From positions 62,001-126,000 of the forward strand of contig JAPPGB010000129.1 of NCBI GenBank assembly GCA_028821475.1: a stretch of DNA of 64,000 bases, written 5' to 3'. The translations under genes were made by a program, and so were the position numbers. Positions 1,901 to 12,523 of the stretch are shown here, piece after piece. The notes under the pieces were generated by a model. The model was not told the DNA's origin. It ran no database searches and saw only the letters and a program-made list of their open reading frames with translations. Position 1 is the first letter of the stretch, and each line of letters opens with the position of its first letter. The DNA comes from Spirochaetaceae bacterium (GTDB taxonomy: Bacteria > Spirochaetota > Spirochaetia > SZUA-6 > Bin103).

Positions 1901-4453
1901 TTATGCTTTCATGCGCGTGTCGGTGGGGTCGAAGGTGGCCAGGCCGGGGGCGACGGTGACCGGGAAGGGTTCGTTCATGTACAGCACCTGCAGGCGGGTG
2001 CCGGGGGCGGCGTGCTCGGGCGGCAGGTAGGCGAACAGCAGGTACTTGCCCACCGAGGGACCCATGCCGGCGGAGGTGACGCGCGACTCGCGGCCGTGGG
2101 CATCGACGATGCGCGCGCCGGCCGCGGTCAGGATCGGCTCGTTGCCGCCGGTTGGGAAGCGGTCGATGCCGGCGGCGCCGGTGTGACGGTCCATGGTCAG
2201 GGCGCACATCCTCGCGGGGGGCGCGGCGGCGCGCGCCTCCAGGTAGGCCTGCTTGCCGACGAAATCGTCGCGCTTCACCCGCGGGCGGGCCAGGCCCGCC
2301 TCCACCGGCGAGTACTCGGCGGTGAGGTCGGAGCCCATCAGCAGGTAGCCCTTCTCCATGCGCCCGGTGGTGCCGTACACGCCGATGCCGACCGGGCGGG
2401 CGTCGAGCGGGCGGCCCGCGTGCCACAGCGCATCCCACAGGCGCACGCCGTGCTGCATGCGGGTGGTAATCTCCCAGCCGCTCTCGCCGACGTAGGAGAT
2501 GCGCAGCATGGACACCGGCACCCCGTCGATCAGCGCCTCGCGCACCGTGCCGTAGGGAAACTCCGCCTGCGACAGGCCGGTGTCGGTGATGCCGGCGAGC
2601 AACGCCGCCGCCTCCGGCCCCCACACGCCGATGGTGCACAGCGCCGACGAGACGTTCTCGAACTGCACTGAGCCGTCGGCGGGCAGGTGGCGGCGGAACC
2701 ATACCTCGTCGCGCGCCCCGTCGAAGGCGCCCGTCACCACCCGGAAGCGGTCGGCGGCCAGCCGCCCGATGGTGAGGTCGGCGCGGATGCCGCCGTCCTC
2801 GGTGAGCAGCGGCGTGTAGATCGAGCTGCCCACCGGGCGGTCGCACTTGTTGACGGTGAGCCGCTCCAGGTAGGGCACCACCCCCGGGCCGGACACGTCG
2901 AAGATCTGGAACGCGCTCAGGTCGACGATGCCCACCTTGTCGCGCAGGTGCAGGTGCTCGGCGGTGCTGATCGGCGACCACCAGCGCCGGTCCCACTCGT
3001 GCGGCCGGTCGGGCACGCCGTAGCGCCGCACCAGGTCGGCGTTGGACTCGTACCACTGCGGGCGCTCCCAGCCGCGCGCGTCGTAGTATTCGGCGCCGAG
3101 GGCCGTGGTGCGGTCGTGAAACGGGGCGCGGTTCATGCCGCGCTCGGAGGCCCACTGCTCGCGCGGGTGCACGATGCCGTAGGTCTTGTTGAAGTGCTCG
3201 TCGGCGCGGGCGCGGATGTGCTGTTCGGTACGCTCGTGGGCGTAGAAGCGGGTGATGTCGGAGGCGTGCGGATCGCACAGCCGCGGGTAGCCGTAGGTCA
3301 TCCACTCCGCGATCAGGCGCGCGGTACCGGGGCCCTCCTTGATCCACACCGCCGCCGCCGACCACAACTTCTCCACCTCGGCGGTCTCGCCGAGCACCTG
3401 GTGGGTGTCCGGGGTCAGCGACAGCAGCCCGTTCACGGAGTACTGCATCTCGGTGCCGGCGAGCAACTCGCCCATGATCTCGCGCGCGTGGCCGAGCTGG
3501 GGGGCGAAGTCGTCGCCGGTGAACGGCATCTCGGTGGGAGAACGCTCCGCCGCGGCGAGCGATGGAATGTCGTCCGGGCGCACCAGGATCGGGCGGTGCG
3601 CGTAGGAGCCCACCTCCATCGCCTCGTGGCTCTGCCGCTCGTACATGAACACGTCCATGTCGCGCACGATCGGGTAGCCGATCTCGTTGCCGGTCCTGGC
3701 CAGCAGGTCGACCGGCCCCATGTCGGCCATCTGGTGCACGGCCGGGGTGAGCGGGATGCTGGCCCCGGCCATGGCGGCGATGCGCGGGCTCCACACGCCG
3801 CAGGCGACCACCACCTGCTCGGCGGCGATGGTGCCGCGGTCGGTAATCACGGCCCGGATGCGCGGGCGGCTGTACGGCCGGGCCTCCACTTCCAGCCCGG
3901 TCACCTCGGTGTTGTCCAGCACGGTCAGCACGCCCTTGGCCAGCGCGCGCTCGCGCATGACGGTGCCGGCCCGCACCGAGTCCACCACCGACACCTCCGG
4001 CATCCAGAAGCCGCCCTTGATCACGGCGCCGTCCACGAACGGAATGCGCGCCACCACCTCGTCCGGGGTCAGCAGCTCCGCCTCGATGCCCCAGGAGCGC
4101 GCCGAGGTCATGCGCCGGCGCAGTTCCTCCATGCGCTCCTCGGTGCGCGCCACTTCGGCGCCGCCGCACGTGGTCCGCACCCCGAGCTCCTCGTACTGCC
4201 GCATGCTCTCCAGGGTGAGCATGGCAATCTCGCGATTGTGGTCGGTGGGAAAGATGAAGTTCGACGCGTGCCCGGTGGAGCCGCCGGGGTTGGGCAGCGG
4301 CCCCTTGTCGATCAGCACCAGGTCGTCCCACCCCAGCCCGGCGAGATGCCCCACCAGGCAGTTGCCGACGATCCCGGCCCCGATCACCACGACCCTCGCC
4401 CTCTCCGGCACCGCCCGCGAACCCGACTCAGTAGCAGTTCCCATAGCCTCCAT
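1901..4453 (-). CDS. FAD-dependent oxidoreductase fused to GcvT domain (dimethylglycine/sarcosine dehydrogenase-like)
   Basis: 850 residues. An N-terminal FAD-binding DAO domain has the Rossmann motif VVVIGAGIVG at about residues 21-30 and a GSTGHASNFIF segment typical of the family near the flavin. The second half (about 430-850) is a folate-binding GcvT domain with its C-terminal barrel. This is the dimethylglycine/sarcosine dehydrogenase architecture: oxidative N-demethylation with the one-carbon unit passed to tetrahydrofolate. No signal peptide, so cytoplasmic. I chose the ATG at 4453 (MEAMGTAT) because the longer reading begins with 44 residues unlike the family; ATG 4444 is also possible. 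Part of its 5' region recurs at 6011-6147. With the nearby TmpA/TmpB-like and GcvT genes it suggests methylated-amine catabolism. The exact substrate cannot be read from sequence. Confidence 0.85.
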   Translation of the reverse strand: MEAMGTATESGSRAVPERARVVVIGAGIVGNCLVGHLAGLGWDDLVLIDKGPLPNPGGSTGHASNFIFPTDHNREIAMLTLESMRQYEELGVRTTCGGAEVARTEERMEELRRRMTSARSWGIEAELLTPDEVVARIPFVDGAVIKGGFWMPEVSVVDSVRAGTVMRERALAKGVLTVLDNTEVTGLEVEARPYSRPRIRAVITDRGTIAAEQVVVACGVWSPRIAAMAGASIPLTPAVHQMADMGPVDLLARTGNEIGYPIVRDMDVFMYERQSHEAMEVGSYAHRPILVRPDDIPSLAAAERSPTEMPFTGDDFAPQLGHAREIMGELLAGTEMQYSVNGLLSLTPDTHQVLGETAEVEKLWSAAAVWIKEGPGTARLIAEWMTYGYPRLCDPHASDITRFYAHERTEQHIRARADEHFNKTYGIVHPREQWASERGMNRAPFHDRTTALGAEYYDARGWERPQWYESNADLVRRYGVPDRPHEWDRRWWSPISTAEHLHLRDKVGIVDLSAFQIFDVSGPGVVPYLERLTVNKCDRPVGSSIYTPLLTEDGGIRADLTIGRLAADRFRVVTGAFDGARDEVWFRRHLPADGSVQFENVSSALCTIGVWGPEAAALLAGITDTGLSQAEFPYGTVREALIDGVPVSMLRISYVGESGWEITTRMQHGVRLWDALWHAGRPLDARPVGIGVYGTTGRMEKGYLLMGSDLTAEYSPVEAGLARPRVKRDDFVGKQAYLEARAAAPPARMCALTMDRHTGAAGIDRFPTGGNEPILTAAGARIVDAHGRESRVTSAGMGPSVGKYLLFAYLPPEHAAPGTRLQVLYMNEPFPVTVAPGLATFDPTDTRMKA

Positions 4454-4613
4454 TGGTGGGAGCTCGCGTTCGCTGGTCAAGGATACCCGTACACTCGACC
4501 ACGACACCGTCAGGCTCTCCGCGTGGTGAGGGGGCGGAGCGGACGTGTGGGCGAGAGTGCCGTTGACCTGATGGAGTTGCCTCAAGCATAGTGCTTACGG
4601 TGAAGGACGCGTC

Positions 4614-4826
4614 ATGGCCTCAGAAACGACCTACAGATATCGCTTCAAGGTAGACGGGAAGATCGTGCATTGCGGCATCACGACCGACTTGGTGCGCCGC
4701 GAGCGCGAACACAGCCGCCGGTGGCCGACGGGCCGCATTGAACAGGTGGGACCGGCAACCACGCGCGAAGAAGCGTGGCATTGGGAGAGGCAGCAGGCCA
4801 GCAGCGGTTCAAGCTCCGCTTCCTGA
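4614..4826 (+). CDS. Small GIY-YIG-like protein
   Basis: 70 residues. The order YRYRFKV, HCGIT, then DLVRREREH resembles the minimal GIY-YIG nuclease core: a degenerate GIY strand, a degenerate YIG strand and the Arg-rich helix with catalytic-type Arg. It is shorter than the usual 80-100-residue domain and lacks the canonical tyrosine pair, so it may bind rather than cut DNA. The start is supported by GAAGGA six bases before the ATG. Its TGA (4824-4826) overlaps the ATG of the SIR2-like gene (TGATG), indicating translational coupling. Similar short proteins are usually annotated as hypothetical or GIY-YIG family. The gene is divergent from the flavoprotein gene. Confidence 0.65.
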   Translation: MASETTYRYRFKVDGKIVHCGITTDLVRREREHSRRWPTGRIEQVGPATTREEAWHWERQQASSGSSSAS

Positions 4827-5887
4827 TGTCTTCACATGAACCGATCCCGGGGGATGCGGATACCGCGCAGACCCTGTCCGGCAATCATGTCGTGGTCACC
4901 GGCGCCGGGTTCACCCGCGCGGTTGTCCCCGGCGCGCCGTTGCTCGTCGACGATTTCAAGAACGATGACCTCGAAACCAAGGTCCGCGGATTGCCCAACG
5001 CGAGCCGCCTGCTGGACTGGGAACGAAGTCTGGACGAGAGAGGTCACATCGACATCGAGCGCCTGATGACGCGTCTCGATGCCCTGATGCCCTACGACCA
5101 CGCCGAGAGTGCGGGCAACGCGGCGAACGAATACCGCTTCCTGCTTTCGGAACTGAAGAGAGCGTTCCTCGACCGGCTCCGTGAAGCCCGGAACGGGGAC
5201 GTCCGTCGCGAGGAACTGAAGCGATTCGCGACCTACTGCGAAGCCAAGGCATGCTGCTGCGTCACATTCAACTACGACGATTTCCTCGACGAGGCACTGG
5301 AGGAGACCGACAGGTGGAACCCGTATTGGGGATACGGGTTCTTCTGCCCTTCCTCATTGGACACGATTGCCACGGGCGAGGAATTCATACCGGAACCGGA
5401 GTTCCTGCTGCTGAAACTCCACGGATCGATCAACTGGCGGCCGAAACTGGGCTATTCGAGCCCGGTCGCGATCGACAGCATCACACACCATCACGAGTGG
5501 TCCGATGGCGGTTATGTCGGTCCGCAGGTCCGCGGTCACCTGGAGCCCGAACCCGTAATGGTCCCGCCGATTCTGTCGAAGTCCAGTCTTGTGGAACAGC
5601 CGGTGCTTCGGCTCGTCTGGTCGCAGGCGTTCGACCGCCTGGCGACGGCCCACGAAGTCACGTTCGTCGGCTATTCGTTCCCTACCACGGATATGGCGGC
5701 GCGGACGCTGTTCTCCGAAGCGCTGAAGGACCTCCCGCGAGACGACATCACTGTCGTCAATCTGAGCCGCGAAGCGCCGGAGGCCGAGTTGACTCGCAGG
5801 CGCTACCGATCGGTGTTCGGCGATATCCCCGACGAACGGTTCCATTTCGGCGGCGCTCTGGAATGGATAAGAGGTTTGTCGAGGTAG
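4826..5887 (+). CDS. SIR2-like domain protein (putative NAD-hydrolysing defence effector)
   Basis: 353 residues with the marks of the SIR2-like (SIR2_2) fold. These are GAGFT at 26-30 (NAD-binding loop), TFNYDDF near 147-153 (position of the sirtuin TQN-D motif, Asn about 149), LKLHGSINW with the catalytic-type His at 199, and VGYSFPTTD near 281-289 (nucleotide-binding loop). There is no zinc-binding Cys pair, so it is unlikely to be a true deacetylase. Proteins of this class act as NADases in several anti-phage systems (for example Thoeris ThsA, DSR proteins); that role here is inferred. I start it at ATG 4826, which overlaps the stop of the GIY-YIG-like gene; an earlier in-frame start would lie inside that gene. 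The pair forms a two-gene operon next to nuclease genes and rearranged sequence. Confidence 0.8.
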   Translation: MSSHEPIPGDADTAQTLSGNHVVVTGAGFTRAVVPGAPLLVDDFKNDDLETKVRGLPNASRLLDWERSLDERGHIDIERLMTRLDALMPYDHAESAGNAANEYRFLLSELKRAFLDRLREARNGDVRREELKRFATYCEAKACCCVTFNYDDFLDEALEETDRWNPYWGYGFFCPSSLDTIATGEEFIPEPEFLLLKLHGSINWRPKLGYSSPVAIDSITHHHEWSDGGYVGPQVRGHLEPEPVMVPPILSKSSLVEQPVLRLVWSQAFDRLATAHEVTFVGYSFPTTDMAARTLFSEALKDLPRDDITVVNLSREAPEAELTRRRYRSVFGDIPDERFHFGGALEWIRGLSR

Positions 5888-5957: not shown

Positions 5958-6190
5958 GAACTCCGCGACGCGGTTACTCACCCGGAATTTCGGCAGTACG
6001 CCGTCAGATGCGGCCCTTGATCACGGCGCCGTCCACGAACGGAATGCGCGCCACCACCTCGTCCGGGGTCAGCAGCTCCGCCTCGATGCCCCAGGAGCGC
6101 GCCCTCTCCGGCACCGCCCGCGAACCCGATTCAGTTGCCCTGTCCATGCCTGCCAATGGTGGCGTATCGCGCTTACGGGTCAAGGTGTCC
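5958..6190 (-). pseudogene. Chimeric remnant: 5' part of the FAD/GcvT gene with an internal deletion, joined to a 3' flank like that of the TmpA-like gene
   Basis: Positions 6011-6103 match 4011-4103 of the flavoprotein gene with about one mismatch, and 6100-6134 match 4397-4431 with one mismatch. The join removes exactly 297 bases (99 codons) at a shared CGCC and keeps the frame. A 47-codon reading frame therefore survives at 6147-6004 (starting MDRATESG and running into SWGIEAELL). Upstream of its start (6148-6190) similarity to 4445-4490 persists but is lower. At the other end, 5958-5970 and 6003-6015 repeat in order two words found at 7858-7869 and 7888-7900, around the stop of the TmpA-like gene; the remnant ends GRI-stop as that gene does. 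No function is expected. Confidence 0.8.
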
Positions 6191-6287
6191 GCGCAGCTCG
6201 CGTGCGTGCGGAAGCTTCTCCCTGTGCAGCAGGAATGTTGCTGGGCCCCGCAGGCGGTGCTATCTTGTCGGAGGCGGAGCGCACCCG

Positions 6288-6980
6288 ATGGCGGATCACA
6301 ACGGACACAGTGGGCCGGCTGACTCAGAGGAAGTGTGGGCTATCCTGCGCGAACTCGCACGGAGCCAGCAGGAGACCGATCGCCGCATGCAGGAGACCGA
6401 CCGGCAGATGCAGGAAACCGACCGCCGCATGCAGGAAACCGACCGGCAGATGCAGGAGACCGATCGCCGCATGCAGGAAACCGACCGGCAGATGCAGGAG
6501 ACCGACCGCCGGCTCCGCAGGCTCGACGATCTGTTCAACGGGCAGTGGGGCAAGCTGATGGAAGCCCTGGTGGAAGGCGATCTCGTCGAGTTGCTCAACG
6601 AGCGCGGCATCAGGGTCGAGCACACCGCAACCAATCTCAAGAGGGAGCGCGGTGCGCGCCGCTGGGAAATCGACATTCTGGCCGTCAACGGTGACGAGGT
6701 CGTAGTGGTGGAAGTGAAGACCACCCTCAAGGTGCGCCACGTCGATCACCTGGTGGGTCTGTTGCGCGATCTTCCGGAGTTGATGCCCGAGTATCGAACC
6801 AAGCAGATCTACGGAGCGGTCGCCTATCTCAAGGCCGATGAATCGTCGGGATCCTACGCCGAACGACAGGGGCTGTACGTGATTCGCGCCACCGGCAGCA
6901 GCGCCAGCATCATCAACCGGGAAGGCTTCCGGCCACGCAGGTTCGGCCGTCACGCCGCCGCCGCAGGCCGGCACGAGTAA
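6288..6980 (+). CDS. Coiled-coil PD-(D/E)XK nuclease-like protein, copy 1
   Basis: 230 residues. Residues about 28-76 are six to seven near-perfect heptads alternating QETDRRM and QETDRQM, a predicted coiled coil. The C-terminal domain (about 85-215) carries a PD-(D/E)XK-type core: EIDILAVNGDEVVVVEVKTT, with Asp129, Glu142 and Lys144. Proteins of this build (DUF3782-like) are common in bacteria with expanded accessory genomes; their task is unknown, though the core suggests nuclease or nuclease-derived activity. The ATG at 6288 follows GGAGGCGGAGC and lies just before a family-like N-terminus; longer readings have no homology-like content. An almost identical second copy follows at 7087. It lies between the SIR2-like pair and the TmpA-like gene. 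Confidence 0.75.
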   Translation: MADHNGHSGPADSEEVWAILRELARSQQETDRRMQETDRQMQETDRRMQETDRQMQETDRRMQETDRQMQETDRRLRRLDDLFNGQWGKLMEALVEGDLVELLNERGIRVEHTATNLKRERGARRWEIDILAVNGDEVVVVEVKTTLKVRHVDHLVGLLRDLPELMPEYRTKQIYGAVAYLKADESSGSYAERQGLYVIRATGSSASIINREGFRPRRFGRHAAAAGRHE

Positions 6981-7086
6981 CACTCCCGTCGCAGCTCCCG
7001 TGCGTGCGGACGCTTCTCCCTATGCGACAGGAATGTTTGCTGGGGTCGGCAGGCGGTGCTATCTTGTCGGAGGCGGAGCGCACCCG

Positions 7087-7779
7087 ATGGCGGATCACAA
7101 CGGACACAGTGGGCCGGCTGACTCAGAGGAAGTGTGGGCTATCCTGCGCGAACTCGCACGGAGCCAGCAGGAGACCGATCGCCGCATGCAGGAGACCGAC
7201 CGGCAGATGCAGGAAACCGACCGCCGCATGCAGGAAACCGACCGGCAGATGCAGGAGACCGATCGCCGCATGCAGGAAACCGACCGGCAGATGCAGGAGA
7301 CCGACCGCCGGCTCCGCAGGCTCGACGATCTGTTCAACGGGCAGTGGGGCAAGCTGATGGAAGCCCTGGTGGAAGGCGATCTCGTCGAGTTGCTCAACGA
7401 GCGCGGCATCAGGGTCGAGCACACCGCAACCAATCTCAAGAGGGAGCGCGGTGCGCGCCGCTGGGAAATCGACATTCTGGCCGTCAACGGTGACGAGGTC
7501 GTAGTGGTGGAAGTGAAGACCACCCTCAAGGTGCGCCACGTCGATCACCTGGTGGGTCTGTTGCGCGATCTTCCGGAGTTGATGCCCGAGTATCGAACCA
7601 AGCAGATCTACGGAGCGGTCGCCTATCTCAAGGCCGATGAATCGTCGGGATCCTACGCCGAACGACAGGGGCTGTACGTGATTCGCGCCACCGGCAGCAG
7701 CGCCAGCATCATCAACCGGGAAGGCTTCCGGCCACGCAAGTTCGGCCGTCACGCCGCCACCGCGGGCCGGCACGAGTAA
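7087..7779 (+). CDS. Coiled-coil PD-(D/E)XK nuclease-like protein, copy 2
   Basis: Second copy of the preceding gene, of the same length (230 residues) and offset by exactly 799 bases. The heptad region and the nuclease-like core are identical by eye. The differences I see are in the last residues: an Arg-to-Lys change in PRRFGR/PRKFGR and an Ala-to-Thr change in the tail. The upstream 100 bases resemble those of copy 1 but are more diverged (for example cctgtgcagcagg against cctatgcgacagg). This suggests an older duplication with later homogenisation of the coding part, or selection on the protein. Both copies look intact, so both may be expressed, perhaps as homo-oligomers through the coiled coil. 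Confidence 0.75.
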   Translation: MADHNGHSGPADSEEVWAILRELARSQQETDRRMQETDRQMQETDRRMQETDRQMQETDRRMQETDRQMQETDRRLRRLDDLFNGQWGKLMEALVEGDLVELLNERGIRVEHTATNLKRERGARRWEIDILAVNGDEVVVVEVKTTLKVRHVDHLVGLLRDLPELMPEYRTKQIYGAVAYLKADESSGSYAERQGLYVIRATGSSASIINREGFRPRKFGRHAATAGRHE

Positions 7780-7888: not shown

Positions 7889-9013
7889 TCAGATGCGGCC
7901 GGTGCGGCGCAGCAGGGCGAGGTGGTTGCGGACGTTGTCGTGCTCGAAGTAGGCGTCCTGCAGGTGGCGCCGTCCTGCCGAGCCCAGCGCGGTGCGTCCG
8001 TGCAGCACGCGGTGCGCGGCGATCAGCAGCACCTGTCCGGCCCCCAGGCGGAGAGAGACCCGTGAGCCGGCCGCGTTCACGCGCGTGGACAACTCGTGGT
8101 AGGCGGCGTAGAAGGCGCCAAGGCGGTGCTCGGCAAGGGGGACGGTCTTCATCTGCTGGGTGTTGAAGCGCAACAGCCTGACGTTGCCTTCGCCGTCGAG
8201 CTCGACCATCGGGTTGACCGCGTAGCTCTCGTCGTGCTCGCTGGCCAGGCGGAACGGCACCGGCACCGTGCACAGCACGTCGAACAGGCCGGGATGTTCG
8301 CGGCGCAACCCGTCGAGCACCCGGAAGCCGTCCACGATCGAGGACTCGCCGCCGTCGCACTCGTTGGCCAGCATGTGCAGCACCTGCACGCTCGGCGGCC
8401 AGCTATAGCTGGTGAAGTCGTTGTGCGGCGCGATCGCCAGGTCGGTGTGCGCGATGCTGTATCCCTTCGGATCTACCACGACGTTGTGGATGCGATCGAA
8501 CACCACCTCGCGCAGCGGGCCCAGACGGGCGGTGAGCTGCTCCGAAGAGTCGGGTTCGGTGGGGGCGTCCACGAGCACGCACGCCCCCGTCGCCAGGAAC
8601 TCCTCGATCAGGTCGGCGGCCGTGCGGTCGTCGTGGAGGAACCGGCTGAAGTCGTACCTGCGCGGCTGGAAGCTGGAATCCCAATGCTGGACGTGGTCGG
8701 GCGTCCGGTGAGGCTGACCGGCCAATCGGCGAAGCTCCCCCGATCCATACCGGGTACGGTGGCCGTCGGGCCACACGATCGCCAGCGCCTCGTCGTCGCG
8801 GCCGGGACACTCGATGGCCACCTGCCGCGGACGAATCTCGCGGGCGACCCGGAAGATGTGGAACCGCTTCTCCGTGGTCTGCACGACACGGCATTCGCTG
8901 CAACCGCAATTGTCGCGCAACCAGAGGTAGGGGAGGCTGGTCTCCTCCCCGCCCCGCCAAACCGCCGCCATGGCGTCGCCGTTCTCGACGACCCTGCTGA
9001 TGGAGTGCTCCAT
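7889..9013 (-). CDS. tmpA-like: TmpA / gamma-butyrobetaine hydroxylase-like Fe(II)/2-oxoglutarate dioxygenase
   Basis: 374 residues. The N-terminal domain (about 1-95) is the small zinc-binding domain of the butyrobetaine-hydroxylase family, with Cys36, Cys38, Cys41 and His52. The catalytic TauD-like barrel carries the iron motif H197-N-D199 and a distal His338 in HGRTAL, followed by Arg348/349 positioned to hold 2-oxoglutarate. Family members hydroxylate gamma-butyrobetaine to carnitine; TmpA, annotated the same way, hydroxylates 2-(trimethylammonio)ethylphosphonate. The divergent neighbour is a PhnZ-type HD oxygenase, the partner expected for TmpA and not for carnitine synthesis, so TmpA is favoured by context. 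Start: ATG 9013 behind GAGGTG with a seven-base spacing. Its 3' flank is partly copied at 5958-6015. Cytoplasmic. Confidence 0.8.
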   Translation of the reverse strand: MEHSISRVVENGDAMAAVWRGGEETSLPYLWLRDNCGCSECRVVQTTEKRFHIFRVAREIRPRQVAIECPGRDDEALAIVWPDGHRTRYGSGELRRLAGQPHRTPDHVQHWDSSFQPRRYDFSRFLHDDRTAADLIEEFLATGACVLVDAPTEPDSSEQLTARLGPLREVVFDRIHNVVVDPKGYSIAHTDLAIAPHNDFTSYSWPPSVQVLHMLANECDGGESSIVDGFRVLDGLRREHPGLFDVLCTVPVPFRLASEHDESYAVNPMVELDGEGNVRLLRFNTQQMKTVPLAEHRLGAFYAAYHELSTRVNAAGSRVSLRLGAGQVLLIAAHRVLHGRTALGSAGRRHLQDAYFEHDNVRNHLALLRRTGRI

Positions 9014-9103
9014 GTTCGATCACCTCAACCCGTCGCGACCGATCTGGGGCCGTGCGGCCCCGGCGATGTGAAGCAAGAATGCAGAATGGGAATCTGGCTC
9101 TCC

Positions 9104-9132
9104 AAATGACTTGTGACGCCCTGCCTTGTCAA
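9104..9132 (-). promoter_or_regulatory. Possible promoter of the TmpA-like gene
   Basis: Reading leftward, a consensus -35 TTGACA lies at 9132-9127, followed 17 bases later by a weak -10-like TCATTT at 9109-9104. It is in the 255-base divergent region between the two oxygenase genes, which must hold promoters for both. The -10 match is poor, so this is tentative. Confidence 0.3.
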
Positions 9133-9268
9133 GAGTTTTCCGAGCTGTTTTTCGACTATTTTTCCGGAGCGCCGAAGGTGCGCCCGCCGGCATCCCTCGC
9201 GACCGGCGGGAGGCCGTATTGACCCGCCGCGCGATCCCGCGTAAATACCATCGCAGGGGGCAGGTTGC

Positions 9269-9865
9269 ATGCATGGAACCGGAACGGCGCGCGCCGCCAC
9301 GGTGAGCTTCACCACCATGGCAGACGGCACCCGCGAGGACTACGAGCTGCTGGCGCGGTTCGAGGAAGAATACGCCGCCGGGCTCGCCGACCGCGTGCTG
9401 GCACAGTTGCGCGCGCTGGCCGGCTCGCTGGCCGGCTACCGGGTGGACCGCCTGGAGCACTCGCTGCAGACTGCGACGCGCGCGCACCGCGACGGCGCCG
9501 ACGAGGAGATGGTGGTGGCCGCGCTGCTGCACGACATCGACGACCTGCTCGCCCCGCACTGCCACGGCGAGCTGTCCGCCCTCATCCTGCGCCCGTACGT
9601 AACCGAGAAGACGTACTGGATCGTGCGCCACCACGGGCTGTTCCAGCTCGTCTACTACGCCCACCACCATGGCCGCGACCGCAACGCACGCGACAAGTAC
9701 CGCGGCCATCCGTGGTACCAGGACGCGGTGGACTTCTGCCACCGCTGGGACCAGGCGGCATTCGACCCCGACTACGTGTCGCTGCCGCTGGAATTCTTCG
9801 AACCGATGGTACGCCGGCTGTTCGCGCGCGAGCCGTTCAGCCTGGCGCCGAGGGGGCATTCATGA
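9269..9865 (+). CDS. tmpB-like: TmpB / PhnZ-like HD-domain mixed-valence diiron oxygenase
   Basis: 198 residues of the HD fold. The ligand set fits a dinuclear iron site: LEHS (His64), the HD pair His88-Asp89, His97/His99, His121/122 and Asp161. The LEHSLQ...GADEEMVVAALLHD stretch closely follows PhnZ, an oxygenase that cleaves the C-P bond of hydroxylated aminoethylphosphonate. TmpB performs the same chemistry on (R)-1-hydroxy-2-(trimethylammonio)ethylphosphonate, giving glycine betaine and phosphate. A plain phosphohydrolase role is the alternative, but the adjacent TmpA-like gene argues against it. The ATG at 9269 follows AGGGGG; GTG 9302 and ATG 9317 are alternative starts. Its stop overlaps the next gene (ATGA at 9862-9865). 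Confidence 0.8.
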   Translation: MHGTGTARAATVSFTTMADGTREDYELLARFEEEYAAGLADRVLAQLRALAGSLAGYRVDRLEHSLQTATRAHRDGADEEMVVAALLHDIDDLLAPHCHGELSALILRPYVTEKTYWIVRHHGLFQLVYYAHHHGRDRNARDKYRGHPWYQDAVDFCHRWDQAAFDPDYVSLPLEFFEPMVRRLFAREPFSLAPRGHS

Positions 9866-11166
9866 CCGGCCAACCGCAAAGCGTCGACCAGTCCGACCGC
9901 ATCGTTCCGATCAACCTGCGCCAGAGCGGGCGCACGCCCACCGAGCTGTTGATCTCCAACCGCGTGCGCAAGTCGCCCTACTGGCACCTGTCGCACGAGG
10001 CGGGCTGCTGGCGCGCCACCGTGTACAACCGCATCTACCATCCGCGCGGCTACGTCCGCCCGGAAGATGGCGGCGCGTCCGCCGAGCACGAGGCGCTGAC
10101 CCACCACGTCACCATGTGGAACGTGGCGGTGGAGCGGCAGATCCGCGTGCAGGGCCCGGACGCGGAGCGGTTCGTGGACTACGTGATTACCCGCGACGCC
10201 ACCCGCATCAAGCCGATGCACGGCAAGTACGTGATCCTGTGCAACGAGCGCGGCGGCATCCTCAACGACCCGGTGCTGCTGCGCCTGTCCGAGGACGAGT
10301 TCTGGTTTTCGCTCGCCGACTCCGACCTGCTGTACTGGCTGCAGGGCGTCAACGTCGGCGCGCGCATGGACGTGCGGATCGACGAAATCGACGCGTGCCC
10401 GGTGCAGATTCAGGGCCCCAGGTCGGAGGCGCTGATGGCCGACCTGGTGGGCGCGGGCATCCGCGACATCCCCTACTACGGCATCATGGAGGCCGAGGTG
10501 GGCGGTTGCCCGGTGGTGATCTCGCAGTCCGGCTTCTCCGGCGAGAAGGGCTACGAGATCTACCTGCGCGACGCCACGCTGCACGCCGAGGCGATGTGGA
10601 ATGCGGTGCTGGAGGCGGGCAAGGCGCACCAGCTCTCGGTGATCGCCCCCGGCCACCAGCGCCGCATCCAGGCCGGCATCATGTCGTGGGGCCAGGACAT
10701 CGACCACGAGACGCTGCCGTTCCAGTGCAACCTGGCCTACCAGGTGCCGCGCCGCAAGCAGGGCGACTACATCGGCAAGGCGGCGCTGGAGCGGGTCCGC
10801 GAGCAGGTGGACGCCGGCAATCCGCCGTTCAGGATGATGCTGGTGGGCATGACGTTGGGCGGCAAGCCGATCGACGACTACGCGCCGGACTTCTGGCTGG
10901 TGTCGGATGCCGCCGGCGGCGACCCGATCGGCTACCTCACCTCGCCGTGGCACGCGCCGGAGCTGGACACCAACATCGCGCTCGGCTACGTGCCGGTGGC
11001 GCTGTCCGCGATCGGCACCGAGCTGACCGTGCACCTGCCGGACGAGTACGCCCCCGAGCCGGGCAAGCCGGTGCCCGCGCGCGTGTGCGAGGTACCGTTC
11101 CGGCCGTCGGTCAACCCCAGCGCCCGCGAACTCGCCCACGCCCGCGGCGAAGACGCCACCCGGTAG
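9862..11166 (+). CDS. GcvT-family folate-dependent aminomethyl/methyltransferase
   Basis: 434 residues of the glycine-cleavage T-protein family, comprising the GcvT folate-binding domain and C-terminal barrel. It is not fused to an oxidase and lacks the short length of housekeeping GcvT, resembling the DmdA-like and unassigned branches that demethylate small betaines or sulfonium compounds. The start ATG 9862 overlaps the TmpB-like stop by four bases and has AGGGGG five bases ahead, so the two are translationally coupled. Downstream of a reaction yielding glycine betaine, a tetrahydrofolate-dependent demethylation of betaine or dimethylglycine is an attractive but unproven role. Cytoplasmic, no signal peptide. 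A long frame joining this gene to upstream sequence is an artefact. Confidence 0.85.
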   Translation: MTGQPQSVDQSDRIVPINLRQSGRTPTELLISNRVRKSPYWHLSHEAGCWRATVYNRIYHPRGYVRPEDGGASAEHEALTHHVTMWNVAVERQIRVQGPDAERFVDYVITRDATRIKPMHGKYVILCNERGGILNDPVLLRLSEDEFWFSLADSDLLYWLQGVNVGARMDVRIDEIDACPVQIQGPRSEALMADLVGAGIRDIPYYGIMEAEVGGCPVVISQSGFSGEKGYEIYLRDATLHAEAMWNAVLEAGKAHQLSVIAPGHQRRIQAGIMSWGQDIDHETLPFQCNLAYQVPRRKQGDYIGKAALERVREQVDAGNPPFRMMLVGMTLGGKPIDDYAPDFWLVSDAAGGDPIGYLTSPWHAPELDTNIALGYVPVALSAIGTELTVHLPDEYAPEPGKPVPARVCEVPFRPSVNPSARELAHARGEDATR

Positions 11167-11179
11167 CGGCCCGCCGAGC

Positions 11180-12523
11180 GTGCAACCCAACGTCGTCTAC
11201 ATCGACTGCCACGACCTGGGGGACTGGCTCGGCTGCTACGGGTATCCGTGGCTGGACACACCTCACTTCGACGCGCTGGCGGCGCAGGGCGTGCGCTTCG
11301 GCGAACACATCGCGGCCGCGCCAATCTGCATGCCGAGTCGGACCGCGATCTACACCGGGCTGATGCCGCACCAACTGGGCGTGACCGGCCAGGAGTCGCT
11401 GCTGTTGGAAGGCAACGCGCCCCCGCTGGCGGCCCGATTTCGAAACGCCGGCTACCGGACCGTGCTGTGCGGGCGGCTGATGGTGCTCAACAGCCCGGAA
11501 GAGATGGGCTTTACCAAGCAACTCGAAACGGACCGCGAGGATCAGGCTGCCACCGCGGCGGCGTTCCTGGAAGCGCACGGGGCGGGCGACGCCCCGTTTC
11601 TGCTGTCGGTGTCCTTCACCCAGTGCCACCGTCCGTTCGGGGCGCAATACGACCCACGTGTGGTGGACCGCGTGGAGGTGCCGCCCTACCTGCCGGACAC
11701 GGCCGCCACGCGCCGCGACCTGGCCACCCTGGCGTGGCAGATCCGCGACCTGGACCGGCGCGTGGGCCTGATCCTGGCCGCCCTCGACCGTGCCGGTCTG
11801 GCGAACGACACACTGGTGGTGTTCACCACCGAGCACGGCCCGGCCATTGCGCGTGCCAAGCACACCACCTACGACTCCGGGTTGCGCACCGCCCTGCTGC
11901 TGCGCCTGCCGGGCACCATCCCCGCGGGCACGATCGTGGATACGATGACCGGCAACGTCGACCTGCTGCCCACGCTTGCCGACCTGTGCGGCCTGCCGGC
12001 ACCCGCCAGCGGCGGCATCAGTTGGGCCGCCCGCCTTACCTCCGGCGACACGCGGACGGTACGCCAATTCGCGTTCAGCGAGTTCAACTGGGGGCGGCGC
12101 AGCGGCGCCTGGTACTACACCCCGAGCCGGGTGATCCGCGGCCCGCGCTACAAGCTGATCCGCGGCTACCGGCGCATCCCGATCTACGTGGACTCCGGCT
12201 GGCTGGCGCGCTATGCCGGCGACCGGGAGACGGTGGAGCGCTGGTACGCCGAGCCGCTGCCCGATGCCCAGTTGTTCGACCTGCAGAAGGATCCGTTCGA
12301 GCTGCGCAACCGCGCCGGCGAAGCCGCCCTGGCAGACATCGAAGCCGACCTCAACCGGCACCTCGACGAGCATCTGCGCGCCACCGGCGACCCGATCCTG
12401 GCCGGGCCGGTAGCCAACCGCGCCGGCGAACCCGACGTGCCGCAGTGGCACCGCCTGCCCGACGGCAGCTTCCGGCTGATCACCGACGACCCGGCCGACC
12501 CCGGCGAAGCCTCCTTCACCTGA
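11180..12523 (+). CDS. Type I sulfatase (sulfamidase-like, family S1)
   Basis: 447 residues with the alkaline-phosphatase-like fold. The metal-binding YIDCHDLG motif is at residues 7-14. The formylglycine signature C-M-P-S-R is at 50-54, where Cys50 would be oxidised by a formylglycine-generating enzyme. TEHGP near 218 holds further metal ligands. The overall pattern resembles heparan N-sulfatase (sulfamidase) relatives. The reading begins with a GTG 13 bases after the GcvT stop, and the family-like N-terminus begins at once, so there is no signal peptide. This makes it a cytoplasmic enzyme acting on imported or small substrates. The substrate is unknown; the setting could mean a sulfated small metabolite rather than a polysaccharide. 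Confidence 0.85.
   Translation: MQPNVVYIDCHDLGDWLGCYGYPWLDTPHFDALAAQGVRFGEHIAAAPICMPSRTAIYTGLMPHQLGVTGQESLLLEGNAPPLAARFRNAGYRTVLCGRLMVLNSPEEMGFTKQLETDREDQAATAAAFLEAHGAGDAPFLLSVSFTQCHRPFGAQYDPRVVDRVEVPPYLPDTAATRRDLATLAWQIRDLDRRVGLILAALDRAGLANDTLVVFTTEHGPAIARAKHTTYDSGLRTALLLRLPGTIPAGTIVDTMTGNVDLLPTLADLCGLPAPASGGISWAARLTSGDTRTVRQFAFSEFNWGRRSGAWYYTPSRVIRGPRYKLIRGYRRIPIYVDSGWLARYAGDRETVERWYAEPLPDAQLFDLQKDPFELRNRAGEAALADIEADLNRHLDEHLRATGDPILAGPVANRAGEPDVPQWHRLPDGSFRLITDDPADPGEASFT

Follow-up and report, generated by a model that had tools for sequence, protein, structure and literature searches.

What compound is broken down by the genes that face away from each other near the start of the DNA examined here, a stretch of 64,000 nucleotides from a Spirochaetaceae bacterium (contig JAPPGB010000129.1, positions 62,001 to 126,000; hereafter the window)? 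A gene for an Fe(II)/2-oxoglutarate (2OG) oxygenase and a gene for an HD-domain protein diverge there, the latter overlaps a gene of the GcvT family, and a gene for a flavoprotein lies some 3 kb off. A preliminary description of the locus had taken the divergent pair for TmpA and TmpB, acting on a phosphonate, with the other two genes carrying the product into betaine demethylation. Our analysis upholds the general chemistry, the conserved cluster and the connection to betaine demethylation, but not the identification with TmpA and TmpB acting on a phosphonate. We see about an even chance that the four genes work as a single catabolic module, whose substrate would be a small methylated onium compound, with a quaternary amine the likeliest choice; they would take it down to simple amino acids and one-carbon units. 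The features concerned are:

7889..9013, minus strand: Fe(II)/2OG oxygenase of 374 amino acids, with Pfam TauD and GBBH-like_N domains, of the BBOX/TmpA superfamily.
9014..9268, no strand: intergenic region between the divergent oxygenase and HD genes, noted as sequence only, in which promoters are expected.
9269..9865, plus strand: HD-domain protein of 198 amino acids, from its sequence and model a probable mixed-valent diiron oxygenase.
9862..11166, plus strand: methyltransferase of the GcvT family, dependent on folate; it resembles DmdA without being one, and is a probable SAR11_1265 orthologue.
1901..4585, minus strand: dimethylglycine oxidase (DMGO)/dehydrogenase-like flavoprotein fused to a GCV_T domain (DAO+FAO_M+GCV_T+GCV_T_C).

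What the preliminary description had read directly from the DNA was all present as claimed: the gene positions, H197/D199/H338 in the oxygenase, H64/H88-D89/D161 in the HD protein, the overlap of the HD and GcvT genes, and a flavoprotein gene at a distance of about 3 kb. The overlap is an ATGA, in which the TGA stop of the HD gene (9863-9865) shares two bases with the ATG start of the GcvT gene (9862-9864). The conserved part of the HD protein begins at about residue 12, so translation may start at a later ATG, at 9317; the true start of the flavoprotein is probably near 4453. The flavoprotein gene is approximately 3.3 kb from the other three.

Scanning for the HD protein, with one genome per species, yielded 80 HD loci. 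The divergent oxygenase/HD pair recurs as in the window in 27 of them, the oxygenases being 65-72% identical. All four genes are found together in L025, L027, L029, L048, L051 and G002, in all but the last of these in the order GcvT, oxygenase, HD, flavoprotein. Many other genomes have two separate pairs, GcvT with flavoprotein and oxygenase with HD, while in Gemmatimonadota the flavoprotein gene is closely downstream of the HD gene. The exact stop/start overlap of HD and GcvT was seen only in the spirochaete family of the window.

We also searched 50 HD-bearing genomes for the three partner proteins. Where a window-type oxygenase is present (28 genomes), a GcvT orthologue of 79-89% identity accompanies it in 27 (Fisher 3e-13) and a flavoprotein of ~73% or more in 23 (Fisher 1e-9), tests that treat as independent genomes that are related, are mostly metagenome-assembled and, for G003 and G067, are the same. 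At these identity levels, neither the GcvT protein nor the flavoprotein occurs in the other HD-bearing genomes (0/22 for each); more distant GcvT homologues (55-69%) occur in three of these 22, of which two are Pelagibacteraceae. Given that the oxygenase/HD pair recurs in so many loci, and that the GcvT and flavoprotein genes are linked to it or to each other in many genomes, the arrangement is not due to chance. The oxygenase, HD, GcvT and flavoprotein genes are a conserved four-gene module. Many of its carriers appear to be sponge-associated, and many of the surveyed genomes presumably come from sponge projects. Literature searches on HD oxygenases, including any acting with butyrobetaine and further types, and on betaine routes in sponge symbionts gave no description of this module.

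The HD protein had been described as a PhnZ-like HD oxygenase, and this part of the reading stands in that the diiron motif is kept and the protein is predicted to fold like PhnZ and TmpB. When an AlphaFold2 model (predicted local distance difference test, pLDDT, 89.4) was compared with the PDB using Foldseek, only PhnZ and TmpB gave significant matches (E 6e-6 to 1e-4), followed by MIOX (E 0.14) and HD hydrolases (0.2 or worse). H64, H88, D89, H99, H122 and D161 (H...HD...H...H...D) are invariant in 41 HD sequences, a ligand set deduced from this invariance, with H99 and H122 assigned by spacing. Because the fold matches PhnZ and TmpB, and the six-ligand set is invariant, the protein is likely a diiron oxygenase rather than a hydrolase, in a subfamily separate from PhnZ and TmpB. 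The motifs HxxAKRY and R-x-x-D, common to PhnZ, TmpB and a PhnZ-type protein of the window's own genome, are missing from the family, and are HGxFQ and H/E-x-x-D in all 41 relatives. We take these two motifs to have a role in phosphonate binding. PhnZ and TmpB have a YxxE loop that defines their substrate gating (PMC8177086); it is likewise missing here, and L54xxY57 stands in its place when the alignment is anchored on the first HD histidine. The protein scores 32.7 bits with the curated model NF049941 (cut-off 300) and 42.1 with TIGR03276 (cut-off 214.6), and its sequence alignment with PhnZ spans only ~40-50 residues.

The oxygenase, with its TauD and GBBH-like_N domains and the H-x-D...H iron ligands H197, D199 and H338, belongs to the BBOX/TmpA superfamily. 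It reaches 225.5 bits with the TmpA model NF049936 (cut-off 400) and 229.9 with the BBOX model TIGR02409 (cut-off 414.75), and its best solved relative is BBOX. The amine cage of BBOX, which we take to be Y177/W181/Y194/Y366, corresponds to F172/H176/H189/Y355 (F/H/H/Y), invariant in 26 relatives, and the acid-binding positions are N284-T285; in the alignment with relatives, the cage and N293 positions of the window clade thus differ from those of BBOX. TmpA contacts the phosphonate through N187, N287 and R288 (PMC9296572); in the clade, the first of these positions holds N or S, the second T, invariant in the 26 relatives, and the third A or Q. In the oxygenase tree, the window clade, which includes a 50% identical protein from G277, has support of 100/100 and is excluded from the TmpA clade (100/97), which contains HD-neighbouring oxygenases of Pelagibacter, a Pseudomonas plasmid and G265. 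The tree does not show clustering with true butyrobetaine hydroxylases either, an outcome that the preliminary description had named as speaking against its reading: the window clade lies next to human BBOX only weakly (69/84; long branches). Judged by the tests run on its sequence, the oxygenase is neither TmpA nor BBOX, since the model scores are under the cut-offs, the pocket residues are changed and the clade is separate; it falls in a clade of its own.

For the GcvT protein, the closest curated model and the best solved relative both belong to DmdA (3tfh; 31% identity over 277 aligned columns), with which it shares the GcvT fold and the folate-site Glu and Tyr. DmdA itself was considered and rejected: the protein scores 264.7 bits against a cut-off of 410, and the Trp specific for dimethylsulfoniopropionate (DMSP), 'W171' in PMC7487153 and W197 in 3tfh, is Phe in the window protein and its orthologues. 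In the GcvT tree, rooted on the flavoprotein domain, one branch is very long and the inner nodes are weakly supported, so we relied on identity and on the Trp/Phe residue. In Pelagibacter, proteins that share 65-67% identity with the window GcvT are encoded after a metF-like gene (L118/L119), and in SAR11_1264/SAR11_1265 metF is followed by an aminomethyltransferase of unknown substrate (PMC3160333). The window protein is thus a probable SAR11_1265 orthologue, the link to the named HTCC1062 locus being drawn from the metF arrangement; the Pelagibacter gene differs in that it sits with one-carbon and DMSP genes, and not beside HD.

The flavoprotein is the member whose assignment as a dimethylglycine oxidase/dehydrogenase-like demethylating enzyme is well supported by homology. 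Among solved structures it is closest to N,N-dimethylglycine oxidase 1pj5, aligned over the full length at 470 bits; the DMGO-type domain order DAO+FAO_M+GCV_T+GCV_T_C is present, and the residues aligned to H225 and Y259 of 1pj5 are conserved. We presume these two to have catalytic roles in DMGO. Relatives of 52-63% identity were also seen in two other HD genomes, at L159 (6820-11050) and L160, adjoining genes that, by the appearance of their sequences, resemble electron-transfer flavoproteins; L159 includes in addition a RACo protein, along with what may be a homocysteine methyltransferase. These loci may represent another form of betaine demethylation locus.

The HD family is found directly beside varied Fe/2OG oxygenases, those of the window clade, a clade sister to TmpA, TauD (L198) and PhyH (L049). 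Such repeated pairing supports a hydroxylate-then-cleave logic independently of the homology with TmpB. The genes nearby point toward quaternary amines. In G277, a window-type oxygenase gene and an HD gene overlap on one strand, amid genes for an MttB-like protein, an MtgC-like corrinoid protein, MTHFR, RACo, a dimethylglycine dehydrogenase (DMGDH)-like protein and sarcosine oxidase, a run that is predicted to form an operon from glycine betaine through dimethylglycine and sarcosine to glycine. HD adjoins an MttB-family methyltransferase gene at L192 and an OpuAC/choline-binding protein gene at L193, and GcvT, HD and DMGDH-like genes are consecutive at L201. On a Pseudomonas plasmid (NZ_CP115240.1; L185 5863-11820), an oxygenase-HD pair is followed by genes for a choline-binding protein, choline dehydrogenase and aldehyde dehydrogenase, an independent context that would point to quaternary amines. 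The proposal that the GcvT protein and flavoprotein serve betaine demethylation is supported by their conserved linkage and co-occurrence, by the G277 operon and by these choline and betaine transport neighbours. In Pelagibacteraceae (L050, 424-8543, and L062), the HD gene directly follows an oxygenase of the TmpA-sister clade and adjoins acetoacetyl-CoA ligase; in L050 it is also near carnitine dehydrogenase and keto-acid cleavage enzyme genes.

If the four proteins act in one route, the Fe/2OG oxygenase would hydroxylate a trimethylammonio compound at the carbon that bears a removable group X, and the HD protein would cleave the C(OH)-X bond with O2; the carboxylate left behind would make the product a betaine, for instance glycine betaine. 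Group X could as well be a carboxylate-bearing chain as a phosphonate. The GcvT protein would then transfer a single methyl group from the betaine to tetrahydrofolate (THF), giving dimethylglycine and 5-methyl-THF, and the flavoprotein, in a step well supported by homology, would oxidise dimethylglycine to sarcosine, handing the carbon to THF. The third step is, in the related operon, the job of the MtgB/MtgC corrinoid proteins, whose genes surround the pair in G277; the proposed reaction would be the same, betaine to dimethylglycine with the methyl passed to THF, with GcvT in their stead. MttB-family proteins were not found in the window's own genome (G000), nor in 29 of the 30 module genomes searched, so GcvT may perform the first demethylation there. 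Tentatively, and at less than even odds, we suggest that the HD protein founds a further class of HD oxygenases, whose Fe/2OG partners make glycine betaine from quaternary amines that are not phosphonates, and that GcvT/SAR11_1265 is a corrinoid-free glycine betaine:tetrahydrofolate methyltransferase.

How do other explanations compare? That the pair is TmpA/TmpB in function, turning 2-(trimethylammonio)ethylphosphonate (TMAEP) into glycine betaine and phosphate, gains from the two protein classes being the same, from an HD model that folds like PhnZ and TmpB, and from a betaine-demethylation context, TMAEP being one possible precursor of glycine betaine. Like TmpA/TmpB of Leisingera caerulea, the window pair joins a BBOX/TmpA-superfamily hydroxylase to an HD diiron oxygenase, which probably act in sequence and would likely yield glycine betaine. 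The two pairs part ways in the separate clade and changed pocket of the oxygenase, in which the positions of N187, N287 and R288 are altered, in the replacement of YxxE, HxxAKRY and R-x-x-D in the HD protein, and in genes that diverge and are tied to GcvT and DMGO genes (residues compared from PMC9296572, PMC8177086 and PDB alignments). With scores far under the curated cut-offs as well, the TmpA/TmpB identity put forward earlier does not hold. The phosphonate substrate fares no better, as the TmpA contacts are gone and none of the genes around the HD loci examined was recognised as a phosphonate gene, though not all of these neighbours were scanned against families. We therefore judge this explanation distinctly unlikely. 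The hydroxylate-then-cleave principle is also that of PhnY*/PhnZ, and the HD fold is alike (Foldseek E ~6e-6), but the window's genome has a PhnZ-type gene paired with a PhyH-family one elsewhere. The PhnZ-type protein (G000:C32:152845-153375; L219 ~8845-9375, minus strand), on another contig, falls just short of the cut-off of the phosphonate HD model (209.5 against 214.6 bits), and the PhyH-family oxygenase gene (L219 7472-8407) adjoins it. If the organism oxidatively degrades a phosphonate, this pair is a better candidate than the pair in the window.

Instead, two pathways might travel together without being connected: GcvT and flavoprotein would act on imported glycine betaine, and oxygenase and HD on an unrelated hydroxylated metabolite. 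Many genomes do have two separated gene pairs, lone HD genes occur widely next to class II aldolase or SDR genes, and OpuAC transport proteins occur in 10 of 16 genomes searched. We nevertheless find this unlikely, given the near-perfect co-occurrence across several phyla, the adjacency of all four genes in several genomes and the position of an oxygenase/HD pair inside the demethylation operon of G277. A sulfonium substrate, in which DMSP or a relative is hydroxylated, cleaved to a shorter compound and relieved of an S-methyl group by the DmdA-like GcvT, would fit with DmdA being the nearest solved and modelled GcvT relative, with the Pelagibacter GcvT orthologue lying near DmdA and a DmdB-looking acyl-CoA ligase, and with the speculation that SAR11_1265 provides a second DMSP demethylation (PMC3160333). 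It is improbable in view of the Phe that replaces the DMSP-specific Trp (PMC7487153) in the whole GcvT group, a flavoprotein of the dimethylglycine type and a wider context that is nitrogenous (MttB, choline-binding proteins). We regard as very improbable a carnitine route in which the oxygenase hydroxylates gamma-butyrobetaine or carnitine. BBOX is indeed the best solved oxygenase relative, and genes for carnitine dehydrogenase and a keto-acid cleavage enzyme lie close to a Pelagibacter HD gene, but the module contains no gene that we recognised as a carnitine gene, the residues at the cage and N293 positions are unlike those of BBOX, and the relative G003/G067 has a separate BBOX-like gene beside genes resembling those for carnitine dehydrogenase and the cleavage enzyme (L155).

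Several observations also weigh against a single module for a quaternary amine. In the oxygenase clade, His occupies two of the four positions of the amine cage, which leaves trimethylammonium binding uncertain, and the AlphaFold2 model of the oxygenase (pLDDT 52) was too poor and was not used. HD orthologues of Chloroflexi (L031-L041) are flanked by SDR genes, and the Chloroflexi and other such HD genomes surveyed are without oxygenase, GcvT and flavoprotein; the HD protein can therefore act outside the module. Co-occurrence may be inflated by shared habitat or transfer, as the genomes are mostly metagenome-assembled and from similar habitats. The G277 operon need not be specific for betaine, since members of the MttB superfamily use several quaternary amines. 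Finally, PF02574 (S-methyl_trans) proteins, putatively BHMT, are found in some module genomes.

The DNA between the flavoprotein gene and the other three holds genes outside the module:

4775-5887, plus strand: SIR2_2 gene.
6135-6980 and 7000-7779, plus strand: two near-identical Hjc/NERD-type nuclease-like genes.

The tandem nuclease-like genes (6135-7779) are 99.6% identical across 720 bases and encode heptad-like MQETDRQ repeats; the match to Hjc/NERD nucleases is weak. In G002, of the same genus, the GcvT, HD, oxygenase and flavoprotein genes are more tightly grouped than in the window, and neither SIR2_2 nor the duplicated nuclease-like set was seen. The 3-kb gap is thus probably a secondary insertion, as it is filled by SIR2_2 and the duplication, and the genes are closer together in G002. 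Directly after GcvT, a sulfatase-family gene (11180-12523) is present in the window and in G002 (84% identical), and was not seen in the other module loci examined; no curated sulfatase model matched it above its cut-off.

The module is best described as a variant of the known oxygenase plus HD-oxygenase pair, coupled to folate-dependent demethylation. The HD-domain oxygenase types reviewed in PMC8177086 are MIOX, PhnZ and TmpB, and the family described here would be a further, widespread HD-oxygenase subfamily, with spirochaetes, Gemmatimonadota and Pelagibacter among its carriers. The module suggests that betaine can be demethylated to folate without a corrinoid protein, and for the SAR11_1265 family, which is conserved in some of the ocean's most abundant cells, it offers a class of substrates that can be tested.

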